A stretch of 64,000 bases of DNA from Bacteroidota bacterium (GTDB taxonomy: Bacteria; Bacteroidota; Bacteroidia; 2-12-FULL-35-15). Location: the NCBI GenBank assembly GCA_947504725.1, contig CANNHN010000001.1, positions 248,001 through 312,000 on the forward strand, in the 5' to 3' direction. Below are positions 1,470-8,259 of the stretch, piece after piece. The notes under the pieces are model-generated. The model ran no database searches and was not told the DNA's origin. It saw nothing but the letters and a program-made list of their open reading frames with translations. The position numbers were made by a program, and so were the translations under genes. The stretch's first letter is position 1, and each line of letters opens with the position of its first letter.

Positions 1470-2495
1470 TTAATCGTTCTCGATTTTATGAACCAGTTTT
1501 TTCAAGGAATCATCCATGCGTTTAAAGAAACGATAACGCTGTTTTTCAGCAACTCCACTTATAAGATTTGATTTTCGTATTAAGTTTTTTAACCACAAGT
1601 CTGTTTCATTGCAGAAGCCAGGATTTGTTGTTGGCATTACATTGAAAGTATGATAAGATATATAAGCTGCTTTCATTGTTCCCATTTGCGACATAACACA
1701 ATTGTTACCGATCATCACATCACTATGGTACAATTCATAGTTGTTTCCGGAGCTGGCTGGTTTATCGTTCGAATCAAATTTGACATTTGTTTCTGCTTGC
1801 TTATTTATCCTTGCAAACAATAAGCTAAGTTCTCCACATACTTTCAATGCATCTTCCTTACTGTGAAAAGCTCCGGCATCCCAATAAAACTCTATTTGTT
1901 TCAATGTGCTGGTTGCCGTATCATCCGACCAGATTTCTATAGAAGATATTTGCGAATACATATCATAGATATCCTTTGCAATGTTTATTAATTCTTCATC
2001 AACATGTATCGTATCAAATTTTTTGTCTTCATAGCCTGGTGAATTTAAAATAGACCTATTCCAATAAAATATTTTGAATGCTGTCAGAAAAGGATGAGCA
2101 AAATGTTGAAATACTGGAATGTCTTCTGCTGCATATATAACAGAACGATCGTTTTCGGGGAATTTCACAACATTCGAAATATCCCTTTTCATCCCTTCAA
2201 GATATTCGTGAAATGAATTTACATGGCTACTTAGCTGTTTGTAGGCGAAACTAACGGTGCTAATGCCACTACTGTTGCCTATAAAAGCATCAAACGAAAT
2301 TTTAAAATGCTTGCATATAAGAGCAATCTCTTCAATACTTAGAGTTGTTTCTCCTCTAATCCTTCTGTAAGCACTGTCATTACTTACGCCCAGCAAGTCC
2401 GCCATTTCGTCAACCAAAGAAATGTTTGCTGGAAGAGCAGCCTTAATTCGTTGCATTAAAATATTCTGTGCGCTTTCTTGATCTTTTTTTGCCAT
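1470..2495 (-). CDS. Helix-turn-helix (XRE/BetR-like) transcriptional regulator
   Basis: Protein of 341 aa if translation starts at ATG 2493-2495, whose N-terminus MAKKDQESAQ fits family members. A frame open further upstream would add 28 residues encoded by sequence that looks regulatory. Residues about 25-75 form an XRE-type helix-turn-helix (LVDEMADLLGVSNDSAYRRI, then a TTLSIEEIALICKHF helix). The remaining 260 residues are a conserved Bacteroidota C-terminal region with no recognised catalytic motif, probably sensing or oligomerisation. It is divergent from the secreted-protein module that begins at 2719. Four copies of GATTTGC lie between them, so autoregulation or control of that module is plausible but unproven. 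Confidence 0.75.
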   Translation of the reverse strand: MAKKDQESAQNILMQRIKAALPANISLVDEMADLLGVSNDSAYRRIRGETTLSIEEIALICKHFKISFDAFIGNSSGISTVSFAYKQLSSHVNSFHEYLEGMKRDISNVVKFPENDRSVIYAAEDIPVFQHFAHPFLTAFKIFYWNRSILNSPGYEDKKFDTIHVDEELINIAKDIYDMYSQISSIEIWSDDTATSTLKQIEFYWDAGAFHSKEDALKVCGELSLLFARINKQAETNVKFDSNDKPASSGNNYELYHSDVMIGNNCVMSQMGTMKAAYISYHTFNVMPTTNPGFCNETDLWLKNLIRKSNLISGVAEKQRYRFFKRMDDSLKKLVHKIEND

Positions 2496-2513: not shown

Positions 2514-2568
2514 GCAAATCAACCAATTAAGATTTGCAATTTTTACTAAATGTATGAAATCGATTTGC
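2514..2568. promoter_or_regulatory. Cluster of GATTTGC heptamers (candidate operator)
   Basis: GCAAATC (2514-2520) and GATTTGC (2531-2537) form an inverted repeat with a 10-nt spacer. A third copy is at 2562-2568 and a fourth at 2684-2690, overlapping the -7 box of the next gene. The cluster sits just upstream of the HTH regulator start, where autoregulators commonly bind. Confidence 0.35.
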
Positions 2569-2681
2569 AAAAAGTGCAAATTTCCCGTTTTTTTTCATTT
2601 TGACATTCTTTTTTTGCGACAAACAAGTCTACACTCATTGCCTGTCGCGGAAAGCCGTTTTTCTACCTGTTATTCCCGACC

Positions 2682-2718: not shown

Positions 2719-3039
2719 ATGAAAAAAATGCTACTAATACTGATTCAAATCCTAATCTGCTCACAAATGATAGGTCAAACAAAGAAAAACGCTTGTTTTT
2801 TAACGAATAACAGTTCATTTAATCAATCCAATAGAAGCATTAAGAGCTTATCACTTAAAAGCTATTTAGTTACTCGTAAAGAATACAAAAAAAGCTCAAA
2901 GGAAACTTTTACTCCAAAACTTTCTATTGACTTATTGGATGGTTCAGGAATTCATTTGTTCACAACTCCTAAAATTGGACCAATACCTACAATAAATGTA
3001 GGAGCAAGAATTAATGCAGGAATCAAAATTTCAATTTAA
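2719..3039 (+). CDS. Small secreted protein of unknown function
   Basis: Protein of 106 aa starting at ATG 2719 (MKKMLLILIQ...). An upstream in-frame ATG would place 72 extra residues inside the intergenic and regulatory region and before the -7 box, so it was not used. Residues 1-19 are a signal peptide (IGQ/T cleavage). The mature part is lysine- and serine-rich and ends in a short glycine-rich amphipathic strand (GARINAGIKISI) like the last beta-strand of small outer-membrane proteins. The family is not recognised. It is the first gene of a co-directional module reaching 6365, probably secreted or envelope-associated. Confidence 0.55.
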   Translation: MKKMLLILIQILICSQMIGQTKKNACFLTNNSSFNQSNRSIKSLSLKSYLVTRKEYKKSSKETFTPKLSIDLLDGSGIHLFTTPKIGPIPTINVGARINAGIKISI

Positions 3040-3058: not shown

Positions 3059-3187
3059 ATGAAAACAGAAATTCAAACTTTATCAAAAAAAGAAGCTTTA
3101 CTAAAATGTATCATCTTTCTTTTCATTCTTTCTTTAGCAGTGTGTGTGTTTGAAAACATTGACACTATAATAAATAATTTTCTATAA
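3059..3187 (+). CDS. 42-aa single-span membrane mini-protein
   Basis: Short frame ATG 3059 to TAA 3187, 19 nt after the previous stop. It encodes MKTEIQTLSK, then KEALLK, and a strongly hydrophobic segment (residues 17-31, IIFLFILSLAVCVF-like), then ENIDTI. Positive residues precede the membrane span, giving an N-in topology. Its MKT start in an AAA-rich context and tight spacing match its neighbours. No homology is recognised. It could be a small inner-membrane protein of the operon, or a non-functional frame. Confidence 0.4.
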   Translation: MKTEIQTLSKKEALLKCIIFLFILSLAVCVFENIDTIINNFL

Positions 3188-3225: not shown

Positions 3226-4341
3226 ATGAAAACAAAATTAACAATCTTAGTAGTTAGTGCAATAGCTACTTCAACCTTCGCACAAGATGTAATTACATTT
3301 AAAAGCGGCAACGAAAAAAATGTAAAAGTTATAGAAGTGACTCCTACAGAAATAAAATACAAAAGTTTTGATAACCTAGAAGGACCTACTTATGCTGAAC
3401 AAAAAACAAACATATTTATGGTAAAATATCAAAATGGCATGAAGGATGTTTTTAATAATGGAGCCACTCAATCAACTCCTACTACTTTTGTAGCGAAGTC
3501 CCCTGAAAAAGCAGTTGCAATTAACAACAGTCTTAGTTCAACAGATTATCGTCAATATCTAAACGAAGATCTTATCATTACTACAGCAGGTGATAGTATT
3601 AGATGTATCATTGACGGAATAGGGGTCGCAAACATCTCTTACCATATTTTAAAATCTGGTATGGATACCCAAAGTTCCATTCCGTTAACCAGTGTTTCGA
3701 AATTCTATAATAATTCTACAACTAAAAGAGAAATTGTTTCAGTTTTAGAAGTTCCTCAAAAAACAGAATTAAAGAGCACAACAACAGATACAACCGATCA
3801 AGATGAGTTTTTACCTGAATCTAGAAGATATGGTGGACCAAGAATAGGTGCAACATTGGTTGGTCCAGGTGTTTTTAGAGATGCTTTAACATATGAAGGA
3901 AAAAATAGCCTTTATTCTCAATTCGGTTGGCAATTTGAAAAACGTTTATTCACAACAAAAACGGGAATATCTGCAGTTGTGGAACTTGTACCATTGATAG
4001 GTGGTTTGGATATGGGAAAGTTTATTCCGTCTGTTTCTGGGCTAATTGGAATTAGATCAAAAAAAGGGTACGAGTTTGGAGCAGGACCAAATATGGCAGT
4101 TTATGGTTACAAAAATGCACAAGGAAATTATACTACGAATACAAGTTTCGGAATTGTAATAGCTGCTGGAATGTCATTTAAATCTGATAAAGTTTATTTT
4201 CCAATCAACATAGCATACATTCCTTCTGTAGGGAAAACAGCAAACGTTACTGATCCAACTACAGGTGTTAAAACAAGAGTAAAATACGAAACAGGTCACA
4301 AAGTTAGCTTGTTGATAGGATTTAATTACAGAAAAAAGTAA
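3226..4341 (+). CDS. Secreted two-repeat plus beta-barrel outer-membrane protein
   Basis: Protein of 371 aa with signal peptide 1-19 (cleavage after TFA). Residues about 20-76 and 112-162 are two divergent copies of a short beta domain of the pattern D-x-I-x-x-x-x-G-x, ...I-x-Y-x, ...V-x-x-F/Y. The first copy (DVITFKSGNE...EGPTYAEQK) closely matches the single copy in the next gene. Residues about 200-371 are beta-rich with alternating aromatics (GPRIGAT, FGWQFEKR, VELVPLIGG, FEFGAGPNM-like) and match the C-terminal half of 5091-6365, consistent with an outer-membrane barrel. Function unknown. The family resembles widespread Bacteroidota hypothetical envelope proteins. Confidence 0.6.
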   Translation: MKTKLTILVVSAIATSTFAQDVITFKSGNEKNVKVIEVTPTEIKYKSFDNLEGPTYAEQKTNIFMVKYQNGMKDVFNNGATQSTPTTFVAKSPEKAVAINNSLSSTDYRQYLNEDLIITTAGDSIRCIIDGIGVANISYHILKSGMDTQSSIPLTSVSKFYNNSTTKREIVSVLEVPQKTELKSTTTDTTDQDEFLPESRRYGGPRIGATLVGPGVFRDALTYEGKNSLYSQFGWQFEKRLFTTKTGISAVVELVPLIGGLDMGKFIPSVSGLIGIRSKKGYEFGAGPNMAVYGYKNAQGNYTTNTSFGIVIAAGMSFKSDKVYFPINIAYIPSVGKTANVTDPTTGVKTRVKYETGHKVSLLIGFNYRKK

Positions 4342-4381
4342 TTACATAACGTAGCATTAACCCCCATAAAATAAAACTAAA

Positions 4382-5065
4382 ATGAAAACTTTAAAAAATA
4401 AAATATACAAAATCATGTTGTCGGGAATGTTATTATCCTCTGTAATAATTCCCAATCGTTCATCAGCACAAGATACGATGCACTTCCGAAACGGGGATGT
4501 TTTGATTGGTAGTGTTATTGAAATAACCTCTGATATTGTTAAATATAAAAAGTCGCAAAACCTTGACGGACCTGACTATTCAGACTTTAAAAATGACATT
4601 TCTTCCATTCATTTCAAAAATGGAATAGTAGAAAATTTTGAATATCAAATGCCTGTTCAATCGGTTGTTCTAAACATGGAAGTAAAAAAAGAAGATTATT
4701 TTGTTGAACCCAAAAAACATCCATCCGTTAAGAAATTTGGAAAAACGAAATTTCTTTATGATGGTGCACTTATCGGTAACCATGATTTTCATTCAGTAAT
4801 GCTTGGTGTTGACGACAAAAGGATTACGAATCACATTACGCTAGCAAAAAAGCAGGAGCGTGGACAATATATTGGGTTTGCTTTTTTTCCTTGCGCAATT
4901 GCTGGAATTGCAATTGCTGGCATGAACTCCGCTGAAGCACCAGCGCTGGGTGCGTTCATGGGTGTTCTTGGTGTAGCTTGCTTTGCAACTTCCATCACGC
5001 TAAAAGTGAAACGAAACCAAAATGAAGCCGCTGCATTAAAATTATATCAGCAACATTTTAATTAA
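4382..5065 (+). CDS. Secreted protein with short beta domain and C-terminal membrane hairpin
   Basis: Protein of 227 aa with a signal peptide of about 29 residues (SSAQ end). Residues 31-87 (DTMHFRNGDV...NLDGPDYSDFK...HFKNGIVENF) are homologous to the first repeat of the preceding protein. The rest differs: a basic linker, then two glycine/alanine-rich hydrophobic helices (about 158-205, with GIAIAGMN and ALGAFMGVLG) resembling a glycine-zipper membrane hairpin, then a short polar tail. It lies 40 nt after the previous gene and 25 nt before the next, so probably the same operon. Biochemical role unknown. Confidence 0.55.
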   Translation: MKTLKNKIYKIMLSGMLLSSVIIPNRSSAQDTMHFRNGDVLIGSVIEITSDIVKYKKSQNLDGPDYSDFKNDISSIHFKNGIVENFEYQMPVQSVVLNMEVKKEDYFVEPKKHPSVKKFGKTKFLYDGALIGNHDFHSVMLGVDDKRITNHITLAKKQERGQYIGFAFFPCAIAGIAIAGMNSAEAPALGAFMGVLGVACFATSITLKVKRNQNEAAALKLYQQHFN

Positions 5066-5090
5066 GTAAACTTTTAAAAATTCATACATC

Positions 5091-6365
5091 ATGAAAACAA
5101 AAAATAAAAACCAAAACTTGAATTCGTCAACTCTCGAGTCATTTCATTCAATGAGGATTTCTACAGAAAATTTATTGCTTTTCTTGAATCTTAACATACT
5201 TGAGAAATACACTCAAAAGTCTTTCGACATTTATTCATCTTTAGTTGGAATAAAAAAATGGTCATTATTTTTCTTCTTTAGTATACTATCAATAGGTGTT
5301 TTTTCACAAGAAACGAAGCTTGCTAAAAGCTCTATCAAATCAAGTGTCACTGTTCTAAATATTGATACAAAAGGTTTTAATCTTGATCCTAGCCAAATGG
5401 GAAACATGGTTCGAATTGAATTAGAAAAACTTGACACATTTGAAGTGATGGATCGGTACGATGTTTCATATGTTGTAGAAAAGAATAAAATAAACATAAA
5501 TAATTGTTATGGTAAAATATGTTTATTAGAAGTTGGCTCAGTAATTAATTCAGAGAAAATGTTTACTGGGAATGTTGAATTGATTGGAGAAACTGTAGTC
5601 GTTAACTTTAGATTGATTGATGTAAAATCCGGAAAAATTGAAATGGTTAGAGTTGATGAATATCTTAATTTACCAAAAGAATTACAATCAATGGTGAAAA
5701 TATCAATTCGTAAAATGTTTAACAAAGATGTGGAAGAACCTTTGGTAACTTATTTAACTAAGAAAAACAATTTTGAAAGTTCAACAAGCAATCCTTATAA
5801 AACAAGTGTAAATTTATCAGGGCCTAGAAGTGGGTTTACTTATTTTACAGGAGAAACAGGACAACGATTGCAAGATTCTCGAAATGAAGGAGGGTATGGA
5901 TCATATCCGTTAATGTTTCAATTCGGGTATCAATTTGAAGTACAATATCTGAATGAAGGAAACTATCAAGCATTGTTCGAATTCTTGCCTACGATTACAG
6001 GCTTTAATCAAAATGTTTTTATTCCAAGTCTAACAATTATGAATGGATTTAGAAATAATAAGCATGGGTGGGAAATTGCATTTGGCCCTTCGTTTAGTGT
6101 AGTAACAAAAGCAGACGGATATTTTGATGCAGAAAGCAATTGGCATCTGGAGAAAGATTGGACAGATTCAACATCAAATCCATTCAGCATAGAAAAGCGT
6201 TTAGACAGCAGAGGTTCGTATGAATTGCAAGCAGGATTCATCGTAGCAGTAGGTAAAACATTTAAGTCTGGAAAATTAAATATTCCTGTAAACATTTACG
6301 TTGTTCCCAATAAAGATGGGATTAGGATGGGGGCCTCTTTCGGATTTAATGCGAAGAGGGTATAA
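5091..6365 (+). CDS. CsgG-like N-terminal domain fused to a beta-barrel
   Basis: Protein of 424 aa. Hydrophobic segment 58-72 (SILSIGVFSQ/E) looks like a signal peptide with an unusually long 55-residue lead; an in-frame ATG at residue 21 is an alternative start, but neither gives a normal signal peptide. Residues about 85-215 follow the CsgG/FlgO-like pattern: LDTFEVMDRYDVSYVVE, then NCYGKICLLEVGSV, then FTGNVELIGETVVVNFRLID, seen in lipoproteins that assemble at the outer membrane. Residues about 240-424 match the barrel of 3226-4341 (GPRxG, FQFGYQFE, FIPS, GFR, GWEIAFGP, TFKSGKLNIPVNIYVVP). The gene is followed by a strong terminator and closes the module. Confidence 0.6.
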   Translation: MKTKNKNQNLNSSTLESFHSMRISTENLLLFLNLNILEKYTQKSFDIYSSLVGIKKWSLFFFFSILSIGVFSQETKLAKSSIKSSVTVLNIDTKGFNLDPSQMGNMVRIELEKLDTFEVMDRYDVSYVVEKNKININNCYGKICLLEVGSVINSEKMFTGNVELIGETVVVNFRLIDVKSGKIEMVRVDEYLNLPKELQSMVKISIRKMFNKDVEEPLVTYLTKKNNFESSTSNPYKTSVNLSGPRSGFTYFTGETGQRLQDSRNEGGYGSYPLMFQFGYQFEVQYLNEGNYQALFEFLPTITGFNQNVFIPSLTIMNGFRNNKHGWEIAFGPSFSVVTKADGYFDAESNWHLEKDWTDSTSNPFSIEKRLDSRGSYELQAGFIVAVGKTFKSGKLNIPVNIYVVPNKDGIRMGASFGFNAKRV

Positions 6366-6490: not shown

Positions 6491-7741
6491 CTACTCAATG
6501 CTCTTCAAATTTAATTTCCTCAGTTTAGGGGCTATTTTATATGTCCCAGCAACAATCAAAATGGTCATCGCTCCACCAAAAACAACAGAGCGCACTAAGC
6601 CCATTGCGTTAGCTGCAACACCCGATTCAAACGCGCCAATTTCATTGGAGGAACCAATAAAAATACTATTAACTGCTGAAACCCTTCCACGCATTTCATC
6701 AGGTGTTGATAATTGTAAAATAGTGTGACGAATAACAACACTCACATTATCGAATGCACCAGTTAAGAATAAAAAGAAAAGTGATAAATAGTAATTGGTG
6801 GAGATAGCAAATAAGATTGTCGCAACACCAAATAGTGCGACATTAATAAACAAACTCCTTCCTGCATTTTTTGTAATTGGCTTATATGCAAGAACAATTG
6901 CTGTAAAAATAGCACCTACGGCTGGAGTTGCTCTTAAGAATCCAAGTTCCATTGCTCCAACATGCAATATCTTATCAGCGAATGCAGGAAGCATAGCAAC
7001 AGCACCACCGAATAATACTGCAAATAAATCCAATGAAAGTGCGCCCAATACTAATTGGTTGCTAAACACAAACTTTATTCCCCCAGACAAACTTTCTTTT
7101 AAGCTCTCTTTTTTTTCTTTTGAAGGAAGTGGTTTTGAGGCAATGAATAGAAAAGAAAAAATAGACAAAATGATAAAAACGATGTTAACCGTGTATGCTG
7201 CAGAAAAACTTATCGTACAAATTATGCCTGCTACAGCAGGACCAATAACTGCTCCAACATGCCATACACTGCTATTCCATGTTGCAGAATTTGCGAAGTG
7301 TTCTCTTGGAACTATTTGAGCCATAAATGCAGGAAAAGCAGCTGAAATAAAGCCTCTTACAATGCCAATAAAACCAAAAACTAAGTAAATGGGTAGTGTG
7401 CCATATGTACTTAGTACAGTAGAAGTCTCTAAAGAAAAATAGAGTAGGGCAGAAGTAGATAATATAAGAAAAGATACAGAAATTAAAATTATTCGTTTTC
7501 TGCTAAAGACATCAGCCACATGGCCTGAAAAGAAAGAGACAAGGATAAAGGGAATTGCTTCTGAAAGACCAATGATTCCCAATGCTAATTCATCTTTTGT
7601 AATAGCATATATTTGCCATGCAACAATAACACTTTGCATTTGAATAGCTAATGTTAAAAAGAATCGAGTATTTAAAAAAAACAAGAACTCTTTTATTCTT
7701 AAAGCAGCATAAGGATCGTGAGCAGTTTTATTTTGTGTCAT
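6491..7741 (-). CDS. MFS transporter, EntS/MFS_3-like exporter
   Basis: Protein of 416 aa, hydrophobic throughout with about 12 membrane helices, the standard MFS length. It shows the loop 2-3 signature GHVADVFSRKR (about 74-84) and a second-half DEMRGRVSAVNSIFIG motif of the MFS_3/EntS group. This group contains exporters of siderophores and lipophilic compounds, so efflux is the likely role; the substrate cannot be read from sequence. A -7 box at 7751-7758 would give a nearly leaderless mRNA. It is transcribed alone, converging on the upstream module. Confidence 0.85.
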   Translation of the reverse strand: MTQNKTAHDPYAALRIKEFLFFLNTRFFLTLAIQMQSVIVAWQIYAITKDELALGIIGLSEAIPFILVSFFSGHVADVFSRKRIILISVSFLILSTSALLYFSLETSTVLSTYGTLPIYLVFGFIGIVRGFISAAFPAFMAQIVPREHFANSATWNSSVWHVGAVIGPAVAGIICTISFSAAYTVNIVFIILSIFSFLFIASKPLPSKEKKESLKESLSGGIKFVFSNQLVLGALSLDLFAVLFGGAVAMLPAFADKILHVGAMELGFLRATPAVGAIFTAIVLAYKPITKNAGRSLFINVALFGVATILFAISTNYYLSLFFLFLTGAFDNVSVVIRHTILQLSTPDEMRGRVSAVNSIFIGSSNEIGAFESGVAANAMGLVRSVVFGGAMTILIVAGTYKIAPKLRKLNLKSIE

Positions 7742-7794: not shown

Positions 7795-8259
7795 ATGAAA
7801 AAAACACTATTTGCTATAATAGCCACAATTGTTGTTTCGTCATCATCTGCCCAAAAAATTGCTTCTGAAAATGTTCCAGCTGCAGTTACTAGTGCATTTA
7901 AAGCAAAATTTTCTATTGCAGAAAAAGCAACATGGGAAATGGATTATGATAATTATGAGGCGGATTTTGTTGTTGGCAAGAGTCCGTTTACCGCAAAATT
8001 TGATAAAGATGGAAAATGGATAGAGACTTATACTTACTTAAAGTCAGCGGAACTTCCTAAGGTTATTAAAGAAGCACTTGCTTCTAAATATGGTGAATTA
8101 AGTGGATACAAGACACAAGAGGCTAGGAAGGTTGAAAAAGAAAAGGGTACATTCTATGAAATGGAAACCATCAAAGGCGAGAAAACATATGAACTGGTGT
8201 TTAATGAAGCAGGCGAATTATTGGAGGATGATATTAAAGCTCCAAATTTAAAAGACTAA
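7795..8259 (+). CDS. Secreted PepSY-like (DUF2874) protein
   Basis: Protein of 154 aa with signal peptide 1-19 (SSSA/Q). The mature part is two alternating alpha/beta PepSY-like units: VPAAVTSAFKAKF...ATWEMDYDNYEADF...FTAKFDKDGKWIE and ELPKVIKEALASKY...FYEMETIKGEKTYELVFNEAGELLE. This is the pattern of DUF2874/BLIP-fold periplasmic proteins, common in Bacteroidota and usually of unknown ligand. Monocistronic with its own -7 box and terminator. Confidence 0.8.
   Translation: MKKTLFAIIATIVVSSSSAQKIASENVPAAVTSAFKAKFSIAEKATWEMDYDNYEADFVVGKSPFTAKFDKDGKWIETYTYLKSAELPKVIKEALASKYGELSGYKTQEARKVEKEKGTFYEMETIKGEKTYELVFNEAGELLEDDIKAPNLKD

Follow-up and report, generated by a model that had tools for sequence, protein, structure and literature searches.

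Gene 3 of a 64,000-nt window from a Bacteroidota genome (the window is the whole stretch of DNA analysed here) has a conserved partner, a divergently oriented regulator gene, and this regulator together with the operon it faces appears to be a widespread, undescribed module of the class Bacteroidia. We consider it probable that the locus acts as a local regulatory unit for outer-membrane proteins whose binding domains lie in the periplasm. This reading is built on computed results, namely homology between domains, fold predictions, the linkage of the regulator and the conservation of a palindrome; as judged from sequence comparison, the link from regulator to operon is well supported, and the outer-membrane cargo may act as a tether or sensor. 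Our literature search found no description of the gene-3 family, the regulator or the module.

The three adjacent genes of the original prediction were all recovered as ORFs on the + strand: gene 1 (3226..4341; signal peptide, two copies of a small beta domain and an 8-strand barrel), gene 2 (4382..5065; signal peptide, one small beta domain and a two-helix membrane hairpin) and gene 3 (5091..6365; N-terminal extension, signal sequence, LpoB/TolB-N-like domain and 8-strand barrel). They are separated by 40 bp (genes 1/2) and 25 bp (genes 2/3), and would be the tail of a five-gene run that carries its own local switch. All five ORFs of the run, head genes included, are under purifying selection; dN/dS against the orthologues in a second genome (G035) is 0.26, 0.08 and 0.07 for genes 1, 2 and 3. 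None of genes 1–3 reaches a Pfam or NCBIfam cut-off, and over all parts of the locus the only above-cut-off family matches in these databases are HTH_3 (the regulator), DUF2400 and PepSY_like (neighbours). The DUF2400 protein (595–1374, − strand) and an MFS-like transporter (6491–7741, − strand) flank the module, with homologues in eight and nine of the 80 named loci, respectively; a secreted PepSY-like protein (PF11396) is encoded at 7795–8259 (+ strand).

The regulator and the head of the operon

The regulator gene (1470..2495, − strand), which lies outside the coordinates covered by the original prediction, is single copy in the window's genome. It encodes a 341-aa protein with an N-terminal XRE/HTH_3 domain (PF01381; 24.5 bits, above the cut-off of 23) and a C-terminal domain of about 270 aa belonging to no known family; the BetR family (PF08667) scores 19.8 bits, below its cut-off of 21.6. 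The divergent regulator first surfaced from clustering of gene-3 neighbours (43 of 80 named loci), and a six-frame recheck returned the same 43. A directed check of the 80 named loci gave 43 with a divergent regulator, eight truncated, 29 without a regulator and none with any other arrangement (i.e. a divergent upstream regulator in 43 of the 72 loci with enough upstream sequence), counts that are not independent, as the named loci are related to each other and were all collected with one motif pattern. Between regulator and gene 3, ORFs of at least 100 aa lie on the strand of gene 3, the exception being a 110-aa minus-strand ORF in one locus (L122).

A search of 148 genomes recovers gene 3 in 50 at E 1e-3, and in 45 of them the match is strong and covers all or nearly all of its length. 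Within the genome collection 228 stretches are confirmed to carry it, and it is the same two-domain protein in all 80 kept loci. The regulator was found in 39 of the 45 genomes with gene 3, versus 28 of the 103 without it (p=1e-11, a value that overstates independence because relatives share ancestry). The regulator is not specific to gene 3, since 28 relatives have it but lack that gene. What speaks against the module are the 29 named gene-3 loci without an adjoining regulator; in three out of ten genomes of such unlinked loci the regulator was not found at E 1e-8.

The operon starts with a gene for a 106-aa secreted protein (2719..3039, + strand; dN/dS 0.17), with orthologues in seven genomes of the same genus (G035, G016, G018, G024, G010, G009 and G015; E 1e-30 to 1e-37), followed by a gene for a 42-aa single-TM microprotein (3059..3187, + strand; dN/dS 0.27), with homologues in the interval from regulator to cargo in 16 further genomes of the genus. 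Sizes within the genus are about 106 aa for the secreted protein and 42–53 aa for the one-helix microprotein. The genes that follow this head vary within the genus: the microprotein is kept also where gene 3 is absent, with other envelope proteins then following, and in four loci (L191, L192, L195 and L197) the cargo consists of a gene-2-type protein and a protein of about 440 aa that begins with the small beta domain. The regulator resembles XRE-family (HTH_3) local repressors in having an N-terminal HTH and a palindrome near its own promoter, but differs from them in its large C-terminal domain of no known family, in facing an envelope operon and in the membrane microprotein kept beside it in 17 same-genus genomes.

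A conserved palindrome upstream of the regulator

The palindrome ATTTGCA-N5-TGCAAAT emerged from a k-mer search of the sequences that precede the regulator gene. It is conserved there, lies at 2563..2581 in the window and is our proposed operator for the regulator. The pattern TTGCA-N4..8-TGCAA is present in 43 of 77 such sequences, against an expectation of 1.5, and 42 of these 43 have a spacer of five; over 866 kb of named loci the arms are found 45 times at spacer 5 versus 1–7 times at other spacers. The exact palindrome has one copy in the 3.4 Mb genome of the window (two looser copies, on C10 and C20, are both intragenic and were dismissed as chance occurrences), and across 36 genomes 11 out of 18 exact sites are directly upstream of the regulator gene.

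Among the 29 named loci where gene 3 has no adjoining regulator, five have the palindrome upstream of gene 3 (L171, L179, L186, L099 and L106), and all five genomes (G150, G151, G152, G111 and G078) carry the regulator elsewhere, on another contig in the case of L099 and L106. L171 and L179 have three copies each, arranged in tandem ahead of gene 3. In three further cases (L102, L130 and L159) the palindrome precedes gene 3, yet no regulator was found in these genomes.

Eight nucleotides after the palindrome, facing the regulator, is TACATTTA (2547..2554, − strand), a −7-like promoter element of the form TAnnTTTR; the Bacteroidota promoter consensus is TAnnTTTG (PMC9723704). TAnnTTTR occurs within 25 nt of 20 of the 43 palindromes (3.3 expected), 19 of them at 8–10 nt from the TGCAA core, and from this spacing the palindrome probably overlaps the promoter of the regulator. 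An additional putative half site, ATTGCAAAT (2532..2540, − strand), has counterparts at a similar position in many same-genus loci.

Domains of the envelope proteins

The AF2 model of gene 3 (from 50 homologues; mean pLDDT of 88.9 for the mature part) consists of an alpha/beta domain followed by a barrel with eight long strands; how the two are placed relative to each other is uncertain (pTM 0.57). Foldseek searches against the PDB match the first domain (residues 83–211; 5337..5723, + strand) to TolB, LpoB and GNA1162 (LpoB 4q6l with E 2.5e-5 and a TM score of 0.68 by target), and the barrel (residues 238–424; 5802..6362, + strand) to OmpA (1bxw), Ail, OmpX and NspA; by these predictions gene 3 combines an LpoB/TolB-N-like domain with an OmpA/OmpX/Ail-like barrel. 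The original prediction had called the first domain CsgG-like, which holds at the level of the CsgG/TolB-N/LpoB fold group, but the domain is closer to LpoB and TolB-N. Some gene-3 homologues match DUF3280, FlgO, TolB_N, CsgG and LpoB below the cut-offs, as fits a domain of the same superfamily: LpoB families PF13036 and TIGR02722 have weak matches in one and five of 50 homologues, respectively, none above cut-off, and CsgG (PF03783) has no match in gene 3 of the window and three sub-cut-off matches in the 50 homologues (best 9.5e-4). Sequence searches of the PDB with gene 3, using a single sequence and a profile, matched nothing. Cysteines 139 and 144 of the first domain are both invariant in 33 homologues; in the 50-row alignment one is invariant and the other conserved in at least 90%. 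At 5091–5313 gene 3 encodes about 55 residues before its signal sequence that are conserved in the genus (ISTENLLLFLNLN..LEKY); this stretch, broken by a stop in G035, is possibly an extended signal region.

Gene 3 thus has its periplasmic fold in common with the LpoB C-terminal domain (4q6l, 4q6z) and the TolB N-terminal domain (7mx5), but it is not a lipoprotein, its domain is attached to a barrel and contains a CxxxxC pair, and it meets their sequence families below cut-off only. Genes 1 and 3, both predicted to be outer-membrane proteins, have the 8-strand barrel fold of the OmpA transmembrane domain, OmpX, Ail and NspA; unlike those proteins, they have no sequence family match, and their additional periplasmic domain is of another kind. 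OmpA itself has instead a C-terminal peptidoglycan-binding domain.

The proposal that gene 1 shares a repeat with gene 2 and a barrel with gene 3 was borne out by BLASTP (E 7e-12 and 2e-14, respectively). When gene-1 proteins were left out of the profiles and 2000 shuffles served as control, the first small beta domain of gene 1 (residues 20–76; 3283..3453, + strand) scores 79 bits (best shuffle 8.4) and its barrel (residues 201–371; 3826..4338, + strand; Foldseek matches OmpA, Ail and NspA) 56 bits (best shuffle 9.9). The second copy (residues ∼115–172; 3568..3741, + strand) scores 5.3 bits in the window, under the best shuffle, and 14.8 bits in the G035 orthologue; its sequence support comes mainly through this orthologue, and in the AF2 model both copies have the same five- to six-strand order. 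The gene 1 model has a lower pLDDT (72 overall) than that of gene 3, with the first repeat at 91–98. The repeat may be a small beta-barrel (SH3/Sm-like) of five strands with a short turn before the last one: its strand order in the AF2 model would fit, and related repeat proteins have matches to Pfam ROF, Hfq and Tudor, all sub-threshold. Gene 2 has one repeat copy and a hydrophobic hairpin at residues 162–209, as had been predicted; gene-2-type neighbours of gene 3 are found mainly within the genus of the window (several genomes).

The small beta domain belongs to a large paralogous family, with up to 12 matches per genome (in G004 and other relatives). The proteins of about 440 aa that begin with it (in L191, L192, L195 and L197, and at 3435–4718 of L209) have, by eye, two more repeat-like stretches followed by a different barrel-like C-terminal part, and a paralogue is found in the window's own genome (G000:C2).

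Alternative readings and proposed mechanism

The original interpretation of modular envelope proteins, assembled from shared parts and encoded in one co-directional run, stands; its recent duplication, its CsgG-type pore and its fixed three-part complex do not. Genes 1, 2 and 3 occur together in only two of the 148 genomes searched (the window's and G035), which goes some way towards the rarity of co-occurrence that the prediction had named as evidence against itself. That the genes arose by recent duplication and recombination within the operon would account for the domains that neighbours have in common, but is very improbable: a tree of 52 barrels sets the gene-1 barrels (of the window, G035, G071 and G064) apart from every gene-3 barrel, that of the window among them, on a branch with 100/99 support, so the barrel sharing is old and we rejected this origin. 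Other families, too, have gene-1-type proteins, and there they are not neighbours of gene 3 (L085, L108); repeats from other genomes resemble the gene 1 repeat at least as closely as that of gene 2 does. A CsgG-type secretion or assembly pore formed by genes 1–3 is even less credible, and is largely refuted by the predicted fold and PDB matches of gene 3. The superfamily of its periplasmic domain is shared with the CsgG curli secretion channel, and 3 of 50 homologues touch PF03783 below cut-off; however, the model of gene 3 lacks the CsgG transmembrane hairpins and has instead a complete 8-strand barrel in a single chain, the PDB matches are LpoB, TolB, OmpA, OmpX and Ail rather than CsgG, there is no lipobox cysteine (the signal end reads IGVFSQET), no curli genes were seen near the locus, and genes 1 and 2 are usually missing beside gene 3. 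Barrels of eight strands have both termini on the periplasmic side and enclose no wide channel, and for this reason the pore reading fails.

Two other readings deserve more weight, both unlikely in our judgement. Gene 3 could take the part of LpoB in Bacteroidia, activating a peptidoglycan synthase, as LpoB does with PBP1b, from an anchor in the outer membrane, given its match to the LpoB C-terminal domain and an anchoring that would place the domain where LpoB works; but the same fold has other roles (TolB and GNA1162 are matched as well), LpoB families are matched below cut-off only, and the patchy occurrence of gene 3 (45 of 148 genomes) speaks against a core cell-wall role. Slightly less doubtful is that the regulator controls only itself and stands beside envelope genes because that gene order was inherited. 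The position of the palindrome near the regulator start, just before the −7-like element facing the regulator, and its retention in genomes without gene 3 are consistent with this, but palindromes, some of them triple, precede gene 3 in five of the 29 named loci without an adjoining regulator, and the regulator–gene 3 association spans many genera despite changing surroundings.

In the regulatory module that we favour, the divergent XRE-type regulator would bind the palindrome at 2563–2581 and control both its own promoter and the facing operon, limiting its own synthesis and setting the level of the operon; the sign of this regulation is presumed, as is a single transcript for the five genes. 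The operon would deliver the small secreted protein and the inner-membrane microprotein with its one helix, followed by the envelope cargo, which in the window is genes 1, 2 and 3. Gene 3 is the most widespread cargo: its 8-strand barrel would anchor it in the outer membrane, and its LpoB/TolB-N-like binding domain may face the periplasm and contact partners in the peptidoglycan layer or inner membrane, a topology that would suit periplasmic tethering or sensing. Gene 2 (small beta domain and membrane hairpin) may be an inner-membrane accessory, and gene 1 (two small beta domains and barrel) an outer-membrane accessory. More speculatively, the microprotein might relay a signal from the membrane or periplasm to the regulator in the cytoplasm; the regulator would then leave the palindrome and switch on the exchangeable outer-membrane set, including the barrel-anchored LpoB-like tether, making the module an undescribed envelope-sensing switch of Bacteroidia; we hold this to be doubtful, and communication between microprotein and regulator is a guess from their shared neighbourhood.

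The analysis defines a family with an LpoB-like domain on an OmpX-like barrel in at least 228 loci. It also yields a candidate regulator, for which an exact DNA site can be named, and a membrane microprotein that is conserved but of a kind that annotation would normally skip. The module bears on the coordination of outer membrane and cell wall in Bacteroidia, which is poorly known.
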